From NCBI RefSeq assembly GCF_002532075.1, contig NZ_LYXE01000063.1, forward strand, positions 1-64,000: a DNA stretch of 64,000 bases, written 5' to 3'. Under the pieces are notes generated by a model, which was not told the origin of the DNA, ran no database searches, and saw nothing but the letters and a program-made list of their open reading frames with translations. This document shows, piece by piece, positions 25,824 to 35,604 of this stretch (position 1 is the first letter of the stretch; each line of letters starts with the position of its first letter). Position numbers and translations under genes: made by a program. Source of the DNA: Candidatus Chloroploca asiatica (GTDB lineage: Bacteria; Chloroflexota; Chloroflexia; Chloroflexales; Chloroflexaceae).

Positions 25824-27122
25824 CTATTGCGTGCGCTCTTGTCCCGGATGGCTGTAGATGACGCCCTTTTTGATCACCTGATCAACCGGATTGCCGCCAA
25901 ATTCGTAGGCCAGGTAGCGGTAGTCGTCGATATCGAGCAGCAGCAAGTCGGCCTGTTTGCCCACTTCGATGGAGCCGATGCGTGCGCCGAGGCCAAGCGC
26001 GTGGGCGGCGTTAATGGTGCAGGCGTTGAGTGCTTCACCCGGTAGCAGGCGCTGGTAGCGGCAGGCGAGCGCCATGACGAGCGGCAACGAGGGGCACGGG
26101 GCCGAACCGGGGTTGATGTCGGTGGTCAGCGCAATGGCGGCCCCGGCGTCGATCATTGCGCGCGCTGCGGCATAGTGGGTGCCGCCGAGGTTGAGCGTCA
26201 CCGCCGGAATCAAGACGCCAATGGCCGGGCTAGCGGCAAGCTGGGCGATGCCTGCCGCCCCCGTCACATCAAGATGATCCACCGAGACGCAGCCCATCGC
26301 AAGCGCCATTGCTAGCCCACCCAGTTCAGTGAACTCGTCAACATGGGCTTTGAGCGGCAGACCCAGGGCCGCTGCGGCTGCGAGCATCCGTCGTGATTGA
26401 GCTACATCAAACGCACCCTGTTCGCAGAAGACGTCAACAAAGAGTGGCACCTCTGCTACGGCAAAGTGGGACTGGCGATACCACGCCACGGCGGCGGGCA
26501 ACATTTCGTTGATCACCAGATCGAGATAGGCCTCGGTACGCCCTGCATAGTCGGCGGGCACCGCATGCGCCCCAAGAAAGGTCGGTACCAGATCAAGCGG
26601 GTGGCTCTGATCAAGTAGTGCGGTTGCCTCAAGCTGACGCAACTCGGCAGTGGTCGTTAGGCCATAGCCCGTCTTGGCCTCGGCGGTGGTAGTGCCCAGG
26701 CGCAGCATCTGGTCGAGGCGAGGCCGCGTCGCGGCAACAAGCTGGTCAACCGAGGCAGCAGCAGTGGCCCGGGCGGTACTGGCGATCCCGCCCCCGGCGG
26801 CCATGATCTCCTGATAGGTTGCCCCGCCGATCCGCAATTCAAATTCGTCCAGCCGATGACCCGCATACACCACATGCGTATGTGGATCAACAAACCCGGG
26901 GCACACGACCTTGCCGTGGGCATCAATTTCAGTGACGGCAGCATAGGCACGGCGCAGATCTTCCGAAGGGCCAACCGCCACGATGGTTGAGCCCTGCACT
27001 GCCACCGCGCCATCGGCGAGCAGACCAAGCTCACGCAACGCAGCGCCGCGTTTCGGGCCAGCGGGCGACGCACATGTGATCAACTGAGCGGCACGATGAA
27101 TCAAGAGATCAATGGCTTGCAT
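25824..27122 (-). CDS. hutI: Imidazolonepropionase
   Basis: 432 residues. It hydrolyses 4-imidazolone-5-propanoate to N-formimino-L-glutamate, the third step of histidine degradation. The amidohydrolase metal motif is CPGFVDPHTHVVYAG; KTGYGLTTTAELR, FLGAHAVP, LKAHVDEFTELGG and TTDINPGSAPCPSL are family signatures, with a C-terminal GKQADLLLLD. It is alone, ending against a 31-bp hairpin and with a MITE-like element upstream of its start. Confidence 0.95.
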   Translation of the reverse strand: MQAIDLLIHRAAQLITCASPAGPKRGAALRELGLLADGAVAVQGSTIVAVGPSEDLRRAYAAVTEIDAHGKVVCPGFVDPHTHVVYAGHRLDEFELRIGGATYQEIMAAGGGIASTARATAAASVDQLVAATRPRLDQMLRLGTTTAEAKTGYGLTTTAELRQLEATALLDQSHPLDLVPTFLGAHAVPADYAGRTEAYLDLVINEMLPAAVAWYRQSHFAVAEVPLFVDVFCEQGAFDVAQSRRMLAAAAALGLPLKAHVDEFTELGGLAMALAMGCVSVDHLDVTGAAGIAQLAASPAIGVLIPAVTLNLGGTHYAAARAMIDAGAAIALTTDINPGSAPCPSLPLVMALACRYQRLLPGEALNACTINAAHALGLGARIGSIEVGKQADLLLLDIDDYRYLAYEFGGNPVDQVIKKGVIYSHPGQERTQ

Positions 27123-27291: not shown

Positions 27292-27909
27292 CTATGTTGC
27301 ATCAAATACCTCATCGACAGACACACTGAAATCATCAATAAGCTTCGAGCGAGCACGCTCGCCCCGTGCGAAGACGCCGTAGGTGACGTAAGCCGCGTCA
27401 TCAAGAACCAGCACGATGATGGTAGCGGTGAGCGGATTGACAATCCAGTATTCGAGGAAGCCCGCCTCGGCATAATCGAGCGGCTTTTCGTCGGTATCAC
27501 GAGTCGGACGGTCAGGGCTGACGATTTCGATCACCAGATCAGCGCCAAGCCAAGCGTCATTCTGATTGCGGGGATCCTGGGCATCAAGCAGAACCACCAG
27601 ATCTGGTTCACGAAACTTGCCCGGACGCAGCTGAACCCGGAGTGGTGCGAAGAGCACTTTGCCTCCTTGTGGACGGAGCAGCAGTACCAGCAATTCATAC
27701 AGGAAGGCAAGGATAATTTGATGATCGCGTGTCGGCATCGGAAGCACCTCGATAACGCCATCCGTAAACTCGATGAGGTGATTGGTCTGGTTCGTCAGCT
27801 TGAAGTATTGCTCGACACTCCACAAACCCTGGAGAGGTTCCAGGGCAAGATCGAGCCCATCAACGGCACGAACTATGCGCAGGTCACTTGTGGACGCATC
27901 AGTCGTCAT
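27292..27909 (-). CDS. Uma2-family (DUF820) PD-(D/E)XK nuclease-like protein
   Basis: 205 residues. The core motifs are EPDLVVLLDA and LVIEIVSPDRPTRDTDEKPL with YAEAGFLEYWIV after it. The start MTTDASTSD is chosen because similarity begins there; the open frame continues 56 codons upstream through non-conserved sequence. It differs strongly from the copy at 560-1162, so these are separate lineages rather than a recent duplication. Function unknown. Confidence 0.82.
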   Translation of the reverse strand: MTTDASTSDLRIVRAVDGLDLALEPLQGLWSVEQYFKLTNQTNHLIEFTDGVIEVLPMPTRDHQIILAFLYELLVLLLRPQGGKVLFAPLRVQLRPGKFREPDLVVLLDAQDPRNQNDAWLGADLVIEIVSPDRPTRDTDEKPLDYAEAGFLEYWIVNPLTATIIVLVLDDAAYVTYGVFARGERARSKLIDDFSVSVDEVFDAT

Positions 27910-28127
27910 AGCGCTACCCTCGGCGTGAGGCGAGTATCTGCACACAGTATACCGAATCAACCCACCTGCACGCAACGCACCTATTCTGGTGGGGATGGCG
28001 AAGGCCGGCTTCGCGTTCCATAGACGAAGCCCCTTTGCTGCGCTCCTAAGAAACAAAAACTGACACGATTTTGACACAACACCATGCTATACTTGCTCGA
28101 CAGAGTTCAGCAACAAGAAGTACACAT

Positions 28128-29135
28128 ATGATGAAACACCCAAACCCTGAGCAAAGATCAGGCTTGTTTGCACGTATGCTTACCCCGCGCACCATCAGTC
28201 TAGCCGTCCTGTTTGGTACAGCGGCAGTCTTGGCAATGCCACCACGCACAGGGCATTTGCGTACACGTGGCAGGCCCAGCACCAGCTACGCCGAGGCCTG
28301 CGAACGCTTTGTGGCCCTGGCTGCGCTAGATGGGCCAGAGGTCAATGCGCAGTGCGGTTCGCGCTTGCTTGATCACGGTGCCCCAACTGAGTCAGTGGTT
28401 GTGCTGTTGCATGGCATGACCAGTTGCCCCGTGCAATTCAACGTGTTTGGCGAACAATTGCACCAACGTGGTCATACGGTGCTGATTCCTCGGCTGCCAC
28501 GGAATGGCATGGCCGATCGGCGTACGGCAGAACTTGGGCGTTTGCAGCCAGCCGAACTGGTGGCCTTTGGCGACGAGGTGGTAGACATTGCTTGCGGCCT
28601 GGGCAAGCGTGTCATCGTGCTGGGGCTCTCGGCGGGGGGCACGGTGGCCGCATGGATCGCACAAGAACGGTCTGAGGTTGCACGGACGATGATGATCGCC
28701 CCGTTCCTGGGCATTAGTACGTTGCCCCTGCTTCGCCAAGCGGTGATCCGCAACACCCTCTTGCGCATACCCAATATTATGGTTGACGACAAGCCGGAAG
28801 AAGCAGCCCGTAAACCCGAGTATAACTATATCCGCAAAGCCTTGCGGAGCTTTGGGGTGATGATGCTCGTAGGCGAATACGTTTTGCGCGAGTCGCGTCG
28901 ACGCCCGCCCGCTTCAGGCGAGGTAATCGTCGTGACGAATGATGCCGATACAGTCGTTAATCGTCAGTTGATCGATCAACTGACCCGGAACTGGCAAGCA
29001 GACGCTCATCAGCGGGTGATTCCATTTTCCTTCAGTGCCGATGATAACCTGGCCCACGATATGATTGACCCGCATCAGCCAACAGCACGTATAGATTATG
29101 TCTATCCGCTTTTGACACAGTATCTTGAAGCATAA
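28128..29135 (+). CDS. Alpha/beta hydrolase with N-terminal signal anchor
   Basis: 335 residues. A hydrophobic segment around residues 17-35 (ISLAVLFGTAAVLAM) would anchor or export it. The hydrolase core has VVVLLHGMTSCPVQF (oxyanion region), the nucleophile elbow VLGLSAGGTVAAW, an acid in VVTNDADTVVN and a late His in DNLAHDMIDP. Family members include carboxylesterases and lysophospholipases; the substrate is unknown. A second ATG 3 nt later is equally possible. It is the first of four same-strand genes that alternate hydrolases and membrane proteins. Confidence 0.8.
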   Translation: MMKHPNPEQRSGLFARMLTPRTISLAVLFGTAAVLAMPPRTGHLRTRGRPSTSYAEACERFVALAALDGPEVNAQCGSRLLDHGAPTESVVVLLHGMTSCPVQFNVFGEQLHQRGHTVLIPRLPRNGMADRRTAELGRLQPAELVAFGDEVVDIACGLGKRVIVLGLSAGGTVAAWIAQERSEVARTMMIAPFLGISTLPLLRQAVIRNTLLRIPNIMVDDKPEEAARKPEYNYIRKALRSFGVMMLVGEYVLRESRRRPPASGEVIVVTNDADTVVNRQLIDQLTRNWQADAHQRVIPFSFSADDNLAHDMIDPHQPTARIDYVYPLLTQYLEA

Positions 29136-29158
29136 AGGCATGTTTCAGGTGTACCATT

Positions 29159-29848
29159 ATGCCATTTGATCTAAGACCACTCTTTCAAGCCTTCCTGTCG
29201 CTCTGGACCTTGTTGTTCCAGCTTGAACATCTCAATGGCAGCCTGCTCGAACTGATCCACTCGTATGTGGGTTTGCATGTTGCCTTTGGCATCTTTTTCC
29301 TGGCCGGGCTCTCCGAGGCGTATGGAACACGTGCGGTGATGCTGTTTCTCAATCGCATCGGGCGACGTCCCTTCTTTCTGAACCTGCTGATCACCAGCAT
29401 CCTGTTTGTCTTTGGGGCCGTCATCTGGGCGTTTACCATTCGCGAGATGAGTGCGCTGTTCTTCGACAATCCGCAGCCACTTTCGTATGCCATTCAAGCC
29501 GTGGGGCTCGCCTATCTGCCGCTGCTCTTTGCCTTCCTTGCCTTCGTTCCCTACCTTGGCCCAGGCCTGTTGATCTTGCTTCAGGTCATCAGCCTGATCC
29601 TGGCGATTTTCAGCATCAGCATTGGCCTGGATGTGCCGCTGGGGGAAGCGGCAATCATGGTGGTTGGCGGGTGGGTGATTTTGCAATTGTTGCGCTGGCT
29701 TACCACCAGGCCAACAACGGCGCTGAGTCGCTGGTTGCTGCGCGTCATTTCAGGACGGGATGTCCACTATCAACTGCGCGATATTGTGCCGCCAATGCCA
29801 CTAGGCCTCAGTGACCAGACCAGCACGTCTGCGGAGGAAGCATCGTGA
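29159..29848 (+). CDS. Integral membrane protein, unknown
   Basis: 229 residues with about five hydrophobic segments (LLELIHSYVGLHVAFGIFFL; FFLNLLITSILFVFGAVIW; LAYLPLLFAFLAFVPYLG; LLILLQVISLILAIFSISI; AAIMVVGGWVILQLL). The layout resembles YIP1-domain proteins, like the last gene of this cluster, but sequence similarity is weak. The next gene overlaps its stop (GTGA), so translation is coupled. Confidence 0.6.
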   Translation: MPFDLRPLFQAFLSLWTLLFQLEHLNGSLLELIHSYVGLHVAFGIFFLAGLSEAYGTRAVMLFLNRIGRRPFFLNLLITSILFVFGAVIWAFTIREMSALFFDNPQPLSYAIQAVGLAYLPLLFAFLAFVPYLGPGLLILLQVISLILAIFSISIGLDVPLGEAAIMVVGGWVILQLLRWLTTRPTTALSRWLLRVISGRDVHYQLRDIVPPMPLGLSDQTSTSAEEAS

Positions 29849-30912
29849 CCTTGTTTGTCTATACCTTGCAGTTGATGATCAACTTCATCCAGATCTTTGG
29901 CCTAGAGCTCCTATTTCTGGTCAGTCTGATGATCTTCGTCGTCCTGCTTGCAGGGTTGATGGTGCCGTTAAGCATCTTGGGTTGGTGGGCCGGAGGCGCT
30001 GAGTCGGCACGGATTCGCGAGGAACACCTCGCCCCCCAACCCAAACCAGCCCGCCCATCGGTGCATGCGCGGCCACAACCTAGCGATACTGCCACGAAGC
30101 CAGAACACTTCCTGGTCTATCTCTCGGGGATCGGCGATGTCTCGGGCGAATACCTGGGCGATTTAGAATGGGACTTCGTCAATCGGCTGAAAGAGGCGTT
30201 GCCGCATACGCATGTGATCCATAATATTTTTGCTTTTTCAGTGAACAATGTTGGCCTCACTGAAGAGAGTCGCTTCGGGCGGTTCTGGGATTCTATTCAG
30301 CAGGCTCGTGCGGGCAGTACACGGATGCGTTCGCTTGGCGGGCTGATCAACTTTCGCAATCTGCTGCATGTAGCGGTTTCGGCTGACCAACGCTATGGCC
30401 CGGTCTTCAACTATGGCACTGCCAGCACGATTATGCAATCCTTGCTCGAGGCGGGCTATCAACCAGGTGATGGGCGTCCTGTTACCTTGTATGGCTACAG
30501 TGGCGGCGGCCAAGTCGTCTTAGGCTCAGCCCAGTACCTCAAGCCAGCGATTCAAGCCCCATTGCAGGTGATCTCGATGGGCGGTGTGATGTCTGATAGC
30601 TACAGCATTGCGCTCGCCGACCAGATTATCCATCTGGAGGGGGACCTGGACAGTGTGCAGCGCCTCGGCGATTACCTGTTTCCGCGTCGCTGGCCGATTG
30701 CCCGCAACTCACGCTGGAATAAGGCTGTTGCCTCAGGAAAATTGCGCCGCTTCTCTACTGGCCCGATGACCCACTCTGGCTCGGCAAGCTATTTCGATGA
30801 TCAGAGTTTTTTGCCCGATGGGCAGAGCTATCTGGACTATACGATTGAGCTTGCAACAACATTGATTGAAGAGTTTCGGGTCGGCTCGCGTTCGCCCTCG
30901 GTAGAACAATGA
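29845..30912 (+). CDS. Membrane-anchored alpha/beta-hydrolase-like protein
   Basis: 355 residues, GTG start inside the previous stop. Two N-terminal hydrophobic segments (FIQIFGLELLFLVSLMIFVV and following) anchor it; after a Pro-rich linker the soluble domain begins FLVYLSGIGDVSGEYLG. A nucleophile elbow VTLYGYSGGGQVVLGSAQ (G-x-S-x-G-G) identifies a serine-hydrolase fold; a late THSGSASYFDD may supply the histidine. I do not recognise a named family. It is coupled to the neighbouring membrane protein. Confidence 0.65.
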   Translation: MTLFVYTLQLMINFIQIFGLELLFLVSLMIFVVLLAGLMVPLSILGWWAGGAESARIREEHLAPQPKPARPSVHARPQPSDTATKPEHFLVYLSGIGDVSGEYLGDLEWDFVNRLKEALPHTHVIHNIFAFSVNNVGLTEESRFGRFWDSIQQARAGSTRMRSLGGLINFRNLLHVAVSADQRYGPVFNYGTASTIMQSLLEAGYQPGDGRPVTLYGYSGGGQVVLGSAQYLKPAIQAPLQVISMGGVMSDSYSIALADQIIHLEGDLDSVQRLGDYLFPRRWPIARNSRWNKAVASGKLRRFSTGPMTHSGSASYFDDQSFLPDGQSYLDYTIELATTLIEEFRVGSRSPSVEQ

Positions 30913-30927
30913 GATGAAGGTAACACG

Positions 30928-31587
30928 ATGCTCATGACCATGCTCCGCAGCAGCATTGCCATTCTGCTGCGCCCGTCAGTGACCACCTTCGAGGCTCACG
31001 AGCGCAATAGTTTGCGCTGGGCGCTGGCCTATGTGTCGCTAGGCGCACTGTTGACGGCCTTGCTGGGGATCGCATCATTTTATCTGCACCGCCCTTTTAT
31101 GGATGCGCAACTAGACGCGATCGCCGCTGAGTTCACGAATTTTGGCCAGGCGATCGGTCAGGATCTGCCGATCGCCGAGTTTATGTTTCCCGCCGAAACG
31201 CATACCCCTATTTTGTCCAATGCGTTGGGGACGCTGATCGGTTTTATGACCTATTTAACGATTGTTTTTCTGCTTGGCAAGGCGCTAGGTGGGAGCGGCA
31301 CGTATGGCGAACTGGCATATGATGTCGCTCTTTTCTGGGTGCCGATTTCAGTCGTGTCAGCCACGCTCAACGTCTTCTCGATCAGCCTGTTCTCGTGTCT
31401 CACCGCGCCGGTGGTTGTCTTTGTCTCTTTTTACGGCTTTTACCTGACCTTTCTGAGCGTGCAGGCAGGGCTGAATCTGCCGCCGATGCGGGCGCTGGTT
31501 GTTGTTCTCGTGCCAACGACGTTGTTTTTTATGTTTTTCTGCGGCCTATTTGCCCTAGCCTTTCTCGTGATTAGCCAGCAGGGGTGA
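30928..31587 (+). CDS. YIP1-family membrane protein
   Basis: 219 residues, five predicted membrane helices. The family pattern is seen: an N-terminal cytoplasmic amphipathic stretch (LLRPSVTTFEAHERNSLRWAL), then LAYDVALFWVPISVVSATL and the repeated helical pairs of bacterial YIP1 (DUF/YIP1) proteins. Such proteins are linked to envelope and lipid functions but are poorly understood. Last gene of the four-gene cluster. Confidence 0.7.
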   Translation: MLMTMLRSSIAILLRPSVTTFEAHERNSLRWALAYVSLGALLTALLGIASFYLHRPFMDAQLDAIAAEFTNFGQAIGQDLPIAEFMFPAETHTPILSNALGTLIGFMTYLTIVFLLGKALGGSGTYGELAYDVALFWVPISVVSATLNVFSISLFSCLTAPVVVFVSFYGFYLTFLSVQAGLNLPPMRALVVVLVPTTLFFMFFCGLFALAFLVISQQG

Positions 31588-32296
31588 AGCACCCGCCCCT
31601 GGCGCAAGCTCAAAGCGGCACCGTCATCATGAGCAGGAGCTGCTTCATCCCGACGTAGTAGCAAAAGCATCGTTACGTATGGCACCTTGTCACCCTGAGT
31701 ACCACATGGCCTGCGATGCTTCGCTACGCTCCTAAGACAAGGTTCGTAGGCACTTGACAGTTTGCGCCCTACGTAGTAGTGCCGACTTTAGTCGGCTGAG
31801 GCCGACTAAAGTCGGCACTACAACTGCCATACTCAAAGGCTCTTTCTGAAACCTTGTCTAAGCAACAAACCTCATGGATGGTCGGATCGCAACACCTTCG
31901 CGGTCATTCCGAACGGAGCCGTAGGCGCAGTAAGGAAGCTGCACGGATCGGCAAGACCCCTCGCTCCGCTCGGGGTGACACGGCGAGCGCGGCGGGGTGG
32001 TTCAATGCCCGCCCCAGGAGGACGATCCACCCCGGGCGAAAGCGCCGGAGGCAGCGGGGGCGTCCGGTCGGCGTGATTCCCAACAAGGCGTGCAGATCCG
32101 TCCGATCGCCGAGGTCGGTTGCCTCGTCGCCTTCGGCTGGCATCTCTCCACGATCGGTGTTTGTGCCCACAATCGTAGCAGAAATGGTCATGACCCGCAC
32201 GTCATATGAAAAACCTACCCCCAAAAGCCGGGGGGGTGGGGAAAAAGCGCATTGGGACGCCATCCCGCAAAACCTCGCTACCTGAGAGCCCCCAGA
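31588..32296. other. Repeat-rich spacer without genes
   Basis: It contains a hairpin-bearing repeat at 31735-31859 and, at about 31890-31985, a CGGAGCCGTAGGCGCAG / GACCCCTCGCTCCGCTC segment of a kind that is dispersed in many bacterial genomes. The short open frames are Arg-rich translations of these repeats and are not credible genes. Confidence 0.6.
31735..31859. repeat. Inverted-repeat element with 21-bp central hairpin
   Basis: Ends AGACAAGGTT / AACCTTGTCT bracket a central hairpin at 31776-31821 in which GTAGTGCCGACTTTAGTCGGC pairs perfectly with its complement around TGAG. The hairpin belongs to the AGTGCCGACTTTAGTCGG family also found at 27167-27202 and 35652-35841. No target duplication was found here. 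Confidence 0.6.
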
Positions 32297-32914
32297 TCAT
32301 CCCTGCTGACGCCACCGCCACCAGACGAACAGCATCGCCATGCCTGCAACCGTGAAGACTACGCCAAAGCCTGCCCCGATGAGTGAGTTCTGGCGTCCAC
32401 AGTAGCCACAAAACTCGAGGAAGGTGTCGGTGGTGAAATAGCGCGCCAGCCGGGCCTCGTTCGTCAGCGCCTGCCGGGTTCCGTCATTCATCATATACAG
32501 GTAGCCTGTCGGCCATTGGCGAGTCAGATCGTCGCATTGCACGTCGCCCGATAAGGTAACAAAGACGACGACGTCGCGTGCGTTGTCGGTGAAAAAGACT
32601 TCGGTGTATTTGGTCTCTTCCCGTTCATTCAAGGGGCCAAAGCCGTAGCGGATCGAGGTAGCGGAAAGCCCCTGGACTTGCTGCAGGGTTTCGCAATCCC
32701 ACGCCCCTTCTTCAATCCGGGCATACGTTCGCGTGGCGCTTGCGACGTTCGCCGCTTCGTCCAGCGTGAGTTGTTGCGGCCCTGCGGCTGTCTCCACCAG
32801 ATCGGGGATCAGAAAAGCCGAGACGTAGAGGCCGACGACCAGCAGGATCAGGCCCATCCAGGGCAACCAGCGCTGCAGATTACGGCGTGCCTCAAGCTGT
32901 TTGTCCGTCAGCAT
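32297..32914 (-). CDS. Two-helix membrane protein of unknown function, downstream of hutU
   Basis: 205 residues. One membrane helix near the N terminus (LPWMGLILLVVGLYVSAFLI) and one near the C terminus (LIGAGFGVVFTVAGMAMLFVWW) enclose a domain of about 130 residues that would lie outside the cytoplasm and has four cysteines (two in FCGYCGRQ, others in WDCE and VQCDD), so disulfides or metal binding are possible. It starts 9 nt after hutU, so the two are probably cotranscribed. Nothing else ties it to histidine use. Family not recognised. Confidence 0.7.
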   Translation of the reverse strand: MLTDKQLEARRNLQRWLPWMGLILLVVGLYVSAFLIPDLVETAAGPQQLTLDEAANVASATRTYARIEEGAWDCETLQQVQGLSATSIRYGFGPLNEREETKYTEVFFTDNARDVVVFVTLSGDVQCDDLTRQWPTGYLYMMNDGTRQALTNEARLARYFTTDTFLEFCGYCGRQNSLIGAGFGVVFTVAGMAMLFVWWRWRQQG

Positions 32915-32923
32915 GGCGTATCC

Positions 32924-34573
32924 CTATGGCAACATTGGCATATCAAGGCCATGCGTTCGCGCAAAGGCGATCGCTTCGTCGTAGCCGGCGTCGGCGTGGC
33001 GGACGACGCCCATCCCCGGGTCGCTGGTGAGCACGCGTTCAAGGCGGCGCGCCGCTTCGGGGGTGCCGTCGGCGACAATGACCTGGCCGGCGTGGATGCT
33101 GTAGCCAATGCCAACGCCGCCACCGTGGTGCAGGCTGACCCAGGTTGCGCCGCCAACGGCGTTGATCATCAGGTTGAGCAGCGGCCAGTCGGCGATGGCG
33201 TCGGAGCCATCACGCATCGCTTCGGTCTCGCGGTTGGGGCTGGCGACCGAGCCGGCATCAAGATGGTCGCGCCCGATGACGATGGGCGCTTTGACGGCAC
33301 CGCTAGCAACGAGTTCGTTGAAGCGCAAGCCCGCCCGCGCCCGTTCGCCGTAGCCGAGCCAGCAGATCCGCGCCGGCAACCCCTGAAACGCGACGTGCTC
33401 GCGGGCCAGGGTGAGCCAGCGCCGCAGGTGGTCGTTCTCGGGGAAGAGTTCCATGATCGCCTGGTCAGTAACGTAGATGTCTTCGGGGTCGCCCGAGAGC
33501 GCCACCCAACGGAAGGGGCCTTTGCCTTCGCAGAAGAGCGGGCGGATGTAGGCTGGCACAAAACCGGGGTAACTGAAGGCCTCGGCGACCCCGGCGTCAA
33601 AGGCGCGCTGACGCAGATTGTTGCCATAGTCAAAGACAATCACGCCCTGATCGCGCCACGCAAGCAGCGTCTCAACATGGCGTGCCATCGAGTCCATCGC
33701 CCGCCGGTCATACTCAACCGGATCAGCATCGCGCAGAGTGGCGGCCTCCTCCAGACTCAACCCAGCCGGAATATAGCCGTAACGAACATCGTGCGCACTC
33801 GTCTGATCAGTCGCAATGTCGGGCGTGACGCCACAGGCCAGGAGCTCGGGCAGCGCTTCGGCGGCATTGGCGATCAGGCCCACCGACAAGGGCAACCCCT
33901 GAGCGCGGGCCTCTTCCACCCAGGTCATCGCCTCTTCGAGATTGTCGGTGGCGCGATCAAGCTGGCGGAGTGCCAGGCGGCGTTCGATGCGCCACGGATC
34001 AACGTCAACCAGCAGCGCGACGCCTTCATTGAAGGTGACGGCCTGAGCCTGTGCGCCGCCCATCTCGCCAAGGCCAGCCGTGATCACCAGCTTGCCCCGC
34101 AGACTCGGCCAGCCCTGCGCCAGCGCCAACGCGCCAAAGGTCTCGTAGGTACCCTGCAAAATGCCCTGCGTCCCGATGTAAATCCAGCTCCCGGCGGTCA
34201 TCTGACCATACATCGTCAGCCCGGCCTGCTCCCAGCGCTCGAAATTCGCCTGGGTCGCCCAGGCCGGCACCAGATTAGAATTGGCAATCAGCACCCGTGG
34301 CGCATCAGTGTGGGTGCGAAAGACAACGACCGGTTTGCCCGATTGCACCAGCAACGTCTCATCGGGCTCAAGGCGGCGCAACGTCGCCAGAATCGCCTCA
34401 AGGCTTGCCCAATTACGCGCAGCCCGCCCCCGACCACCATACACAATCAGATTATCGGGATCAAAGGCCACCTCGGGGTCAAGATTATTCTGCAACATCC
34501 GATAGACAGCCTCGATCTGCCAGTTCTTACAACTCAAGGCAAGCCCACGCGGTGCGCGCATCATTCGGGTCAT
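32924..34573 (-). CDS. hutU: Urocanate hydratase
   Basis: 549 residues, the usual length. It converts urocanate to imidazolonepropionate using tightly bound NAD+ as an electrophile. Signatures: [31 protein letters not shown], the NAD loop [12 protein letters not shown], and [32 protein letters not shown] lies near the C terminus. The start [10 protein letters not shown] has GAGGG 6 nt upstream; the ATG nine codons earlier lacks this. It is followed closely by a small membrane-protein gene. Confidence 0.95.
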
Positions 34574-34647
34574 CGTTGTCCCTCTTTCATCATGATCCAA
34601 CTCGCATCAGAGCCGTCACAAACGTCGCCTGAAGCTTGAACTCAAGT

Positions 34648-35489: not shown

Positions 35490-35604
35490 CAATACCTTGC
35501 AAATAAGGCGGCTATTTTGACGCAAAGGCGCAAAGGTTTTTGCGTAGGTGAGCGTAACCCTTCGCGTCTTCGCGTCTTCGCGTGAGCTTATTTGAAAAGT
35601 ATTG
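35490..35604 (+). mobile_element. MITE-like element, copy B
   Basis: 115 bp. Ends CAATACCTTGCAAATAAG and CTTATTTGAAAAGTATTG are imperfect inverted repeats; the interior has the TTTTGACGCAAAGGCGCAAAGG core, TTTTTGCGTAGGTG, and CGTCTTCGCG units. It matches copy A (18055-18168) along its whole length in opposite orientation. A 10-bp direct repeat GCCTTAGGCA (35480-35489 and 35605-35614) flanks it. Confidence 0.82.

Follow-up and report, generated by a model that had tools for sequence, protein, structure and literature searches.

A divergent Yip1-type membrane protein and a predicted serine hydrolase form a conserved gene pair within a four-gene cluster of Candidatus Chloroploca asiatica

Do four tightly packed genes that alternate between predicted serine hydrolases and membrane proteins belong together, and if so, which of them make up the unit? 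The genes lie at 28128-31587 of a 64,000-nucleotide stretch from the photosynthetic bacterium Candidatus Chloroploca asiatica (hereafter the window; contig NZ_LYXE01000063.1, positions 1 to 64,000; genome G000, 5.84 Mb). A first-pass annotation had read all four as one functional unit. We find instead that deep conservation is confined to the two middle genes, P0002 and P0003: a genuine, deeply conserved pairing of a Yip1-type protein with a hydrolase is well supported, and this pair is a smaller and older unit than the four-gene cluster. The cluster comprises the following features.

28128..29135, + strand: H1 (P0001), predicted signal-anchored alpha/beta hydrolase, lysophospholipase/lipase-like; 335 amino acids, ATG at 28128 (Pfam, triad conservation)
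29159..29848, + strand: M2 (P0002), predicted five-helix divergent Yip1-superfamily membrane protein, partner of P0003; 229 amino acids (relatives' Pfam matches, profile search)
29845..29848, + strand: GTGA start/stop overlap joining P0002 to P0003 (sequence and homologous junctions)
29845..30912, + strand: H3 (P0003), predicted membrane-anchored serine hydrolase of an unnamed alpha/beta hydrolase family; 355 amino acids, GTG start (triad, fold, paralogues)
30928..31587, + strand: Y4 (P0004), canonical Yip1-domain membrane protein; 219 amino acids (Pfam, neighbourhoods, tree)

The layout is as first described: all four genes lie on one strand, with gaps of 23 nt between P0001 and P0002 and 15 nt between P0003 and P0004, the 4-nt GTGA overlap between P0002 and P0003, a GLSAGG motif in P0001 and a GYSGGG motif in P0003. 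The mechanically called open reading frame (ORF) of P0001 begins further 5', at TTG 28071. Ratios of nonsynonymous to synonymous substitution rates (dN/dS) against a sister genome (L036) are 0.128 for P0001, 0.108 for P0002, 0.133 for P0003 and 0.095 for P0004, and therefore the four ORFs are more than chance: all are real and under purifying selection. None of the four proteins was named above cut-offs by NCBIfam, and 0 of 6 proteins matched the PADLOC anti-phage defence models at E <= 0.1.

The pair stands out by its co-distribution. Of 61 relatives surveyed, 20 have P0003, and exactly these 20 have P0002. Among 400 genomes drawn from the phylum, P0003 was found in 15, and these were also the ones with P0002 matches at E < 1e-49. 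Directly upstream and on the same strand, P0002 accompanies 51 of 63 P0003-family ORF matches, 34 of the 51 with a 4-nt overlap; the 63 include near-identical sister strains, genes cut by contig ends and one P0003 in two pieces (L053). The remaining 12 comprise six with no P0002 in the fetched stretch, four with P0002 elsewhere on the same strand, one with P0002 on the opposite strand and one fused. On plasmid pA of the cyanobacterium Kovacikia minuta (L088:6978-10838), a single ORF of 1286 amino acids consists of P0002, P0003 and a third protein, which we call c2. Sinorhizobium, Microvirga and Nonomuraea have the pair as well.

Is the larger block conserved as well? Three further genomes carry the four genes in the same order, at five loci in all (L041, L042, L043, L045 and L009, the first gene of L009 being cut by the contig end), so the concern that they might not be neighbours elsewhere did not materialize. 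The block is rearranged in L044 and lacks P0001 in L046 and L028. P0004 accompanies only one P0003 clade, which includes the window copy (tree support 100/100), and P0001-P0002-P0003 is found in three genomes (L094, L095, L096) of another Chloroflexota family, in a separate P0003 clade. Most P0003 loci have neither P0001 nor P0004, and the four-gene cluster was rejected as a deep unit. A joint function that includes P0001 and P0004 has a weaker case than the pair, built on the recurrent order in one clade and on P0001 in L094-L096. Genes for AI-2E family transporters were seen in two unrelated loci, beside P0003 (L084:7922-8983) and just upstream of P0001 (L095:405-1613).

What kind of enzyme is P0003? 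The protein reaches no Pfam family cut-off (Abhydrolase_6, 14.2 bits against a cut-off of 26.3), and a PDB sequence search with its family returned no match. Ser219 (30499-30501), Asp269 (30649-30651) and His310 (30772-30774) are invariant in 38/38 homologues, including cyanobacterial, alphaproteobacterial and actinobacterial sequences, so the triad, whose incompleteness would have counted against the first-pass reading, is present by conservation. An AlphaFold2 model built from an alignment of six sequences (predicted local distance difference test, pLDDT, 62; predicted template modelling score, pTM, 0.61) has the strand-helix order of an alpha/beta hydrolase following one long N-terminal helix. 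By this modelled order, and by Ser-Asp-His in fold order, P0003 is assigned to the alpha/beta hydrolases. In Foldseek against the PDB, the top matches of the model are acyl-protein thioesterase 2 (E 3.5e-5) and lysophospholipase A2 (E 1.1e-4). VIA scores it highest against Mycobacterium tuberculosis TesA (Z 14.0, root-mean-square deviation 3.0, 162 residues), with carboxylesterases and acyl-protein thioesterase 1 (APT1) at Z about 12-13. The modelled fold thus appears thioesterase/carboxylesterase-like, at modest confidence. Weak Pfam matches among the 38 members are to Thioesterase (14/38) and Palm_thioest (2/38); Abhydrolase_2, the acyl-protein thioesterase/lysophospholipase family, was matched weakly by 1/38 (E 0.23), its likeness being otherwise one of fold only. 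The motifs SADxRYGP and FPxRWP are conserved in the P0003 family and specific to it. The window's genome holds three P0003 paralogues, and, judged by P0003, the closest named relative is Candidatus Chloroploca mongolica M50-1, whose best segment matches at 100%.

The other hydrolase, P0001, is above the Pfam cut-offs for Abhydrolase_6 (38.2 bits against 26.3; 3.2e-9) and Hydrolase_4 (29.9 against 27; 4.2e-7). Its triad, Ser168 (28629-28631), Asp274 (28947-28949) and His310 (29055-29057), is invariant in 9/9 homologues, and it has a single N-terminal hydrophobic stretch (17-35). By conservation, then, both of the hydrolases first predicted here have complete Ser-Asp-His triads.

The two YIP1-like proteins of the first-pass annotation also hold up, on different kinds of evidence. 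P0004 matches Pfam Yip1 (PF04893) at 39.0 bits (9.6e-10), above the gathering cut-off of 28.6. P0002 itself has no Pfam match and misses the Yip1 cut-off, and its place is argued at the family level: among 36 relatives, 7 reach PF04893 with E <= 1, the strongest at 1.3e-6. In the phylum survey the P0002 profile also matches proteins in 24 genomes without P0003 (E 1e-8 to 1e-20), and five such matches that we tested (profile E 4e-15 to 1e-20) were all above the Yip1 cut-off. P0002 has five hydrophobic stretches, and its AlphaFold2 model is all-helical (pLDDT 66.9). A direct comparison of the P0002 and P0004 family profiles for homology found nothing, and a PDB sequence search with the P0002 family gave no match. 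Nor did a fold search in the PDB match P0002 at E <= 0.001, which leaves sequence as the basis of its placement. Profile-level kinship and five predicted transmembrane (TM) segments mark P0002 as a divergent Yip1-superfamily protein.

On which side of the membrane would the pair work? P0002 is positively charged at loop 1 (mean K+R 3.1 over 36 sequences) and at its C-terminal tail (4.2), and an N-out/C-in orientation is therefore predicted. The N-terminus of P0003 is uncharged, and the protein has a single TM segment. In the Kovacikia fusion, P0002 and P0003 are separated by two TM stretches, which would put both on the same side of the membrane. The charge distribution weakly suggests a cytoplasmic catalytic domain for P0003.

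The third protein, c2 (about 590 amino acids), is present in 16 of the 61 relatives, all among the 20 with P0002 and P0003. It lies 3' of P0003 in several loci and forms the C-terminal part of the Kovacikia fusion. The window has no c2; two copies lie elsewhere in the genome, one adjoining a P0003 paralogue at C62:297618 and one near a paralogue at C120:8921. Among its invariant residues are a His and a Cys (H343, C456). No Pfam family of its own was found, and a PDB sequence search with the c2 family gave chance-level matches only. A possible likeness to LRAT/NlpC-P60-type cysteine enzymes, considered because of its invariant GH and NC-type motifs, was set aside; Pfam at E <= 10 gave no family of that type. 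A Stanieria plasmid protein (BAU67487.1; L107:7899-10400) carries a c2 domain followed by an Rce1-like CAAX protease domain (Pfam 1.7e-11), a fusion found in 1/15 c2 members. Neither P0002 nor P0003 was seen beside it.

Which substrate might the pair act on? Genes for glycolipid synthesis recur nearby. At L005, in the window's own genome, a diglucosyl-diacylglycerol-synthase-like glycosyltransferase (NCBIfam 6.7e-49, under its equivalog cut-off) immediately precedes a P0003 paralogue that lacks P0002. A similar glycosyltransferase lies 3' of P0004 in L045 and L009 and convergent to P0003 in L068, and in L054 an MGDG_synth gene begins at the P0003 stop. Overall, of 56 matches to glycosyltransferases resembling monogalactosyldiacylglycerol (MGDG) or diglucosyl-diacylglycerol synthases, 5 lie within 1.5 kb of a P0003 match, against 0.145 expected; the 56 are those listed for the 20 P0003-positive genomes, matches in genomes without P0003 being left out together with two small pieces (one second fragment and one 228-base fragment). 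A glycosyltransferase of the MGT family or UDPGT-like ends just before P0002 in L090, L091 and L092 (Sinorhizobium, Microvirga). In Nonomuraea (L089) a patatin-like gene lies farther upstream; by eye, the frame upstream of P0002 there reads like an MGT/UDPGT-type glycosyltransferase. Directly upstream of the pair, L049:8372-9784 encodes DUF1269 fused to a diacylglycerol-kinase catalytic domain, and DUF1269-type proteins lie upstream of P0002 in L006 (above cut-off) and in L005 and L087 (both under cut-off).

We therefore come to a reading, to which we give a shade under an even chance, in which P0002 and P0003 make up one membrane enzyme, an acyl hydrolase that acts on membrane (glyco)lipids and has a Yip1-type protein as its scaffold. 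The two proteins would be subunits of a physical complex, P0002 serving as membrane scaffold or lipid-entry subunit and P0003 as an acyl-ester (or thioester) hydrolase anchored in the membrane through its one N-terminal helix, with the Ser219-Asp269-His310 domain most likely at the cytoplasmic face. P0003 would most likely deacylate or remodel membrane glycerolipids, especially diacylglycerol-based glycolipids; this (glyco)lipid substrate is a best guess, about as apt to be right as wrong, and the direction of the reaction, like the complex and its topology, is inferred. At the window locus the pair would have two additions, the lysophospholipase-like P0001, which probably faces the outside, and P0004 as another Yip1 protein, with which acyl chains could be handled on both membrane faces. 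Of the envelope-lipid remodelling or trafficking first proposed, the lipid link is partly backed by the neighbourhoods, but "envelope" and "trafficking" are not, the charge pattern weakly placing the P0003 domain in the cytoplasm. A wider claim is that the pair represents an undescribed multi-subunit membrane hydrolase, found in four or more phyla, in which the lipid acyl hydrolase has a Yip1-superfamily protein as an obligate subunit and in some cases c2 fused on; this claim is tentative and clearly the more doubtful.

Several observations weigh against the acyl-hydrolase reading. Three genomes supply all five glycosyltransferase cases: two of the five are orthologues in sister species, and three lie in one 9.3-Mb assembly (G030) with 7% contamination. 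The number of independent events is thus below five; if it is taken as three, the Poisson probability under the same model is about 5e-4. A lipid gene adjoins the pair in a minority of P0002-P0003 loci, and the neighbours vary. The P0003 fold suits thioesterases and carboxylesterases generally and names no substrate, model confidence is modest (pLDDT 62 for P0003 and 67 for P0002), and the N-terminal hydrophobic stretch of the Stanieria c2 (by eye) speaks against an all-cytoplasmic complex. The CAAX-protease domain of that protein points to protein processing.

This last point leads to an alternative in which P0003 is protein-directed (an S-acyl-protein thioesterase or peptidase-like), P0002 its receptor or scaffold and c2, where present, a second processing enzyme. 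The Foldseek matches to acyl-protein thioesterase 2 and lysophospholipase A2, the weak Thioesterase and Palm_thioest matches, the CAAX fusion and the invariant His and Cys of c2 all fit, but no acylated substrate protein was seen consistently co-encoded, and the neighbouring genes for glycosyltransferases and a diacylglycerol kinase suggest lipids instead; we consider this alternative unlikely. Less likely again is a thioesterase, held at the membrane by P0002, that frees acyl chains or proofreads them in the making of a lipid or polyketide: TesA has the top VIA score and the Thioesterase matches agree, yet ordinary esterases lie only about 1 Z unit away, which amounts to a tie, and among the classified neighbours no gene for an acyl carrier, a polyketide synthase or a fatty-acid synthase was conspicuous. 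It is very improbable that these membrane-protein and hydrolase genes lie together by chance, with no joint function. The wider neighbourhood does vary by locus, and the window copy has lost an ATPase present in the sister genomes, but for the pair, occurrence in the same 20 of 61 genomes, the 4-nt overlap and the three-part fusion largely refute this; the counter-case is weaker for P0001 and P0004, whose order recurs within a single clade, P0001 being found in L094-L096 as well.

The ATPase in question is of the P-type. Its gene lies 3' of P0004 in both sister Chloroploca genomes and is missing from 31588-32296 in the window, and no orthologue was found in the window's genome (best match 33% over part). 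Short stretches of the sister flank match the window at 32227-32289 (inverted) and 35490-35604. The gap 3' of P0004 contains a perfect 18-bp inverted repeat with a 4-nt loop (31779-31818), whose 18-mer has one further genome copy (C62:210725-210742). Flanking the cluster on the - strand, 25824-27122 and 32924-34600 hold genes that by eye are imidazolonepropionase-like and urocanase-like, as if the cluster sat within a histidine-degradation region. A promoter scan of 27900-32350 found fewer promoter-like sites than in shuffles and was uninformative.

No settled function for the bacterial Yip1 family emerged from the literature searched. With overlap, co-distribution and fusion all linking a Yip1 protein to a hydrolase, that function becomes directly testable, and an unnamed hydrolase family (P0003) and an unnamed partner (c2) are marked for annotation. 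If the wider claim of a multi-subunit lipid hydrolase is true, bacterial Yip1 proteins would gain an enzymatic role, which would suggest that Yip1 proteins started as lipid-handling partners, before Golgi trafficking. A literature search found no title or abstract on a Yip1-hydrolase pairing; most subscription journals lay outside the search, and absence from print is not claimed.

How does the pair compare with known systems? P0003 shares the alpha/beta hydrolase fold and Ser-Asp-His with APT1/APT2, bacterial carboxylesterases and TesA, but only 10-18% identity over the aligned part, and it adds an N-terminal membrane helix, a membrane partner and its own SADxRYGP and FPxRWP motifs. The MGDG/diglucosyl-diacylglycerol-synthase-like glycosyltransferases recur beside P0003, but as neighbours rather than parts, and are absent from the window's cluster. 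Eukaryotic YIPF proteins have five TM segments, and different Yip1 proteins assemble in pairs (PMC6682643); the five segments, the superfamily and the presence of two Yip1 proteins are common to this cluster, whereas in the parts of that source consulted YIPF complexes serve Golgi trafficking with no hydrolase; kinship is at the superfamily level only. In archaea, Yip1 proteins (COG2881/PF04893) occur in cassettes with SpoIIM-like proteins, for which the authors think of membrane remodelling (Makarova et al. 2015, PMC5898192). These cassettes resemble the present pair in placing a Yip1-family membrane protein in a small conserved gene set; the section that describes them pairs Yip1 with another membrane protein and mentions no hydrolase, whereas here the partner is a triad-bearing predicted alpha/beta hydrolase.

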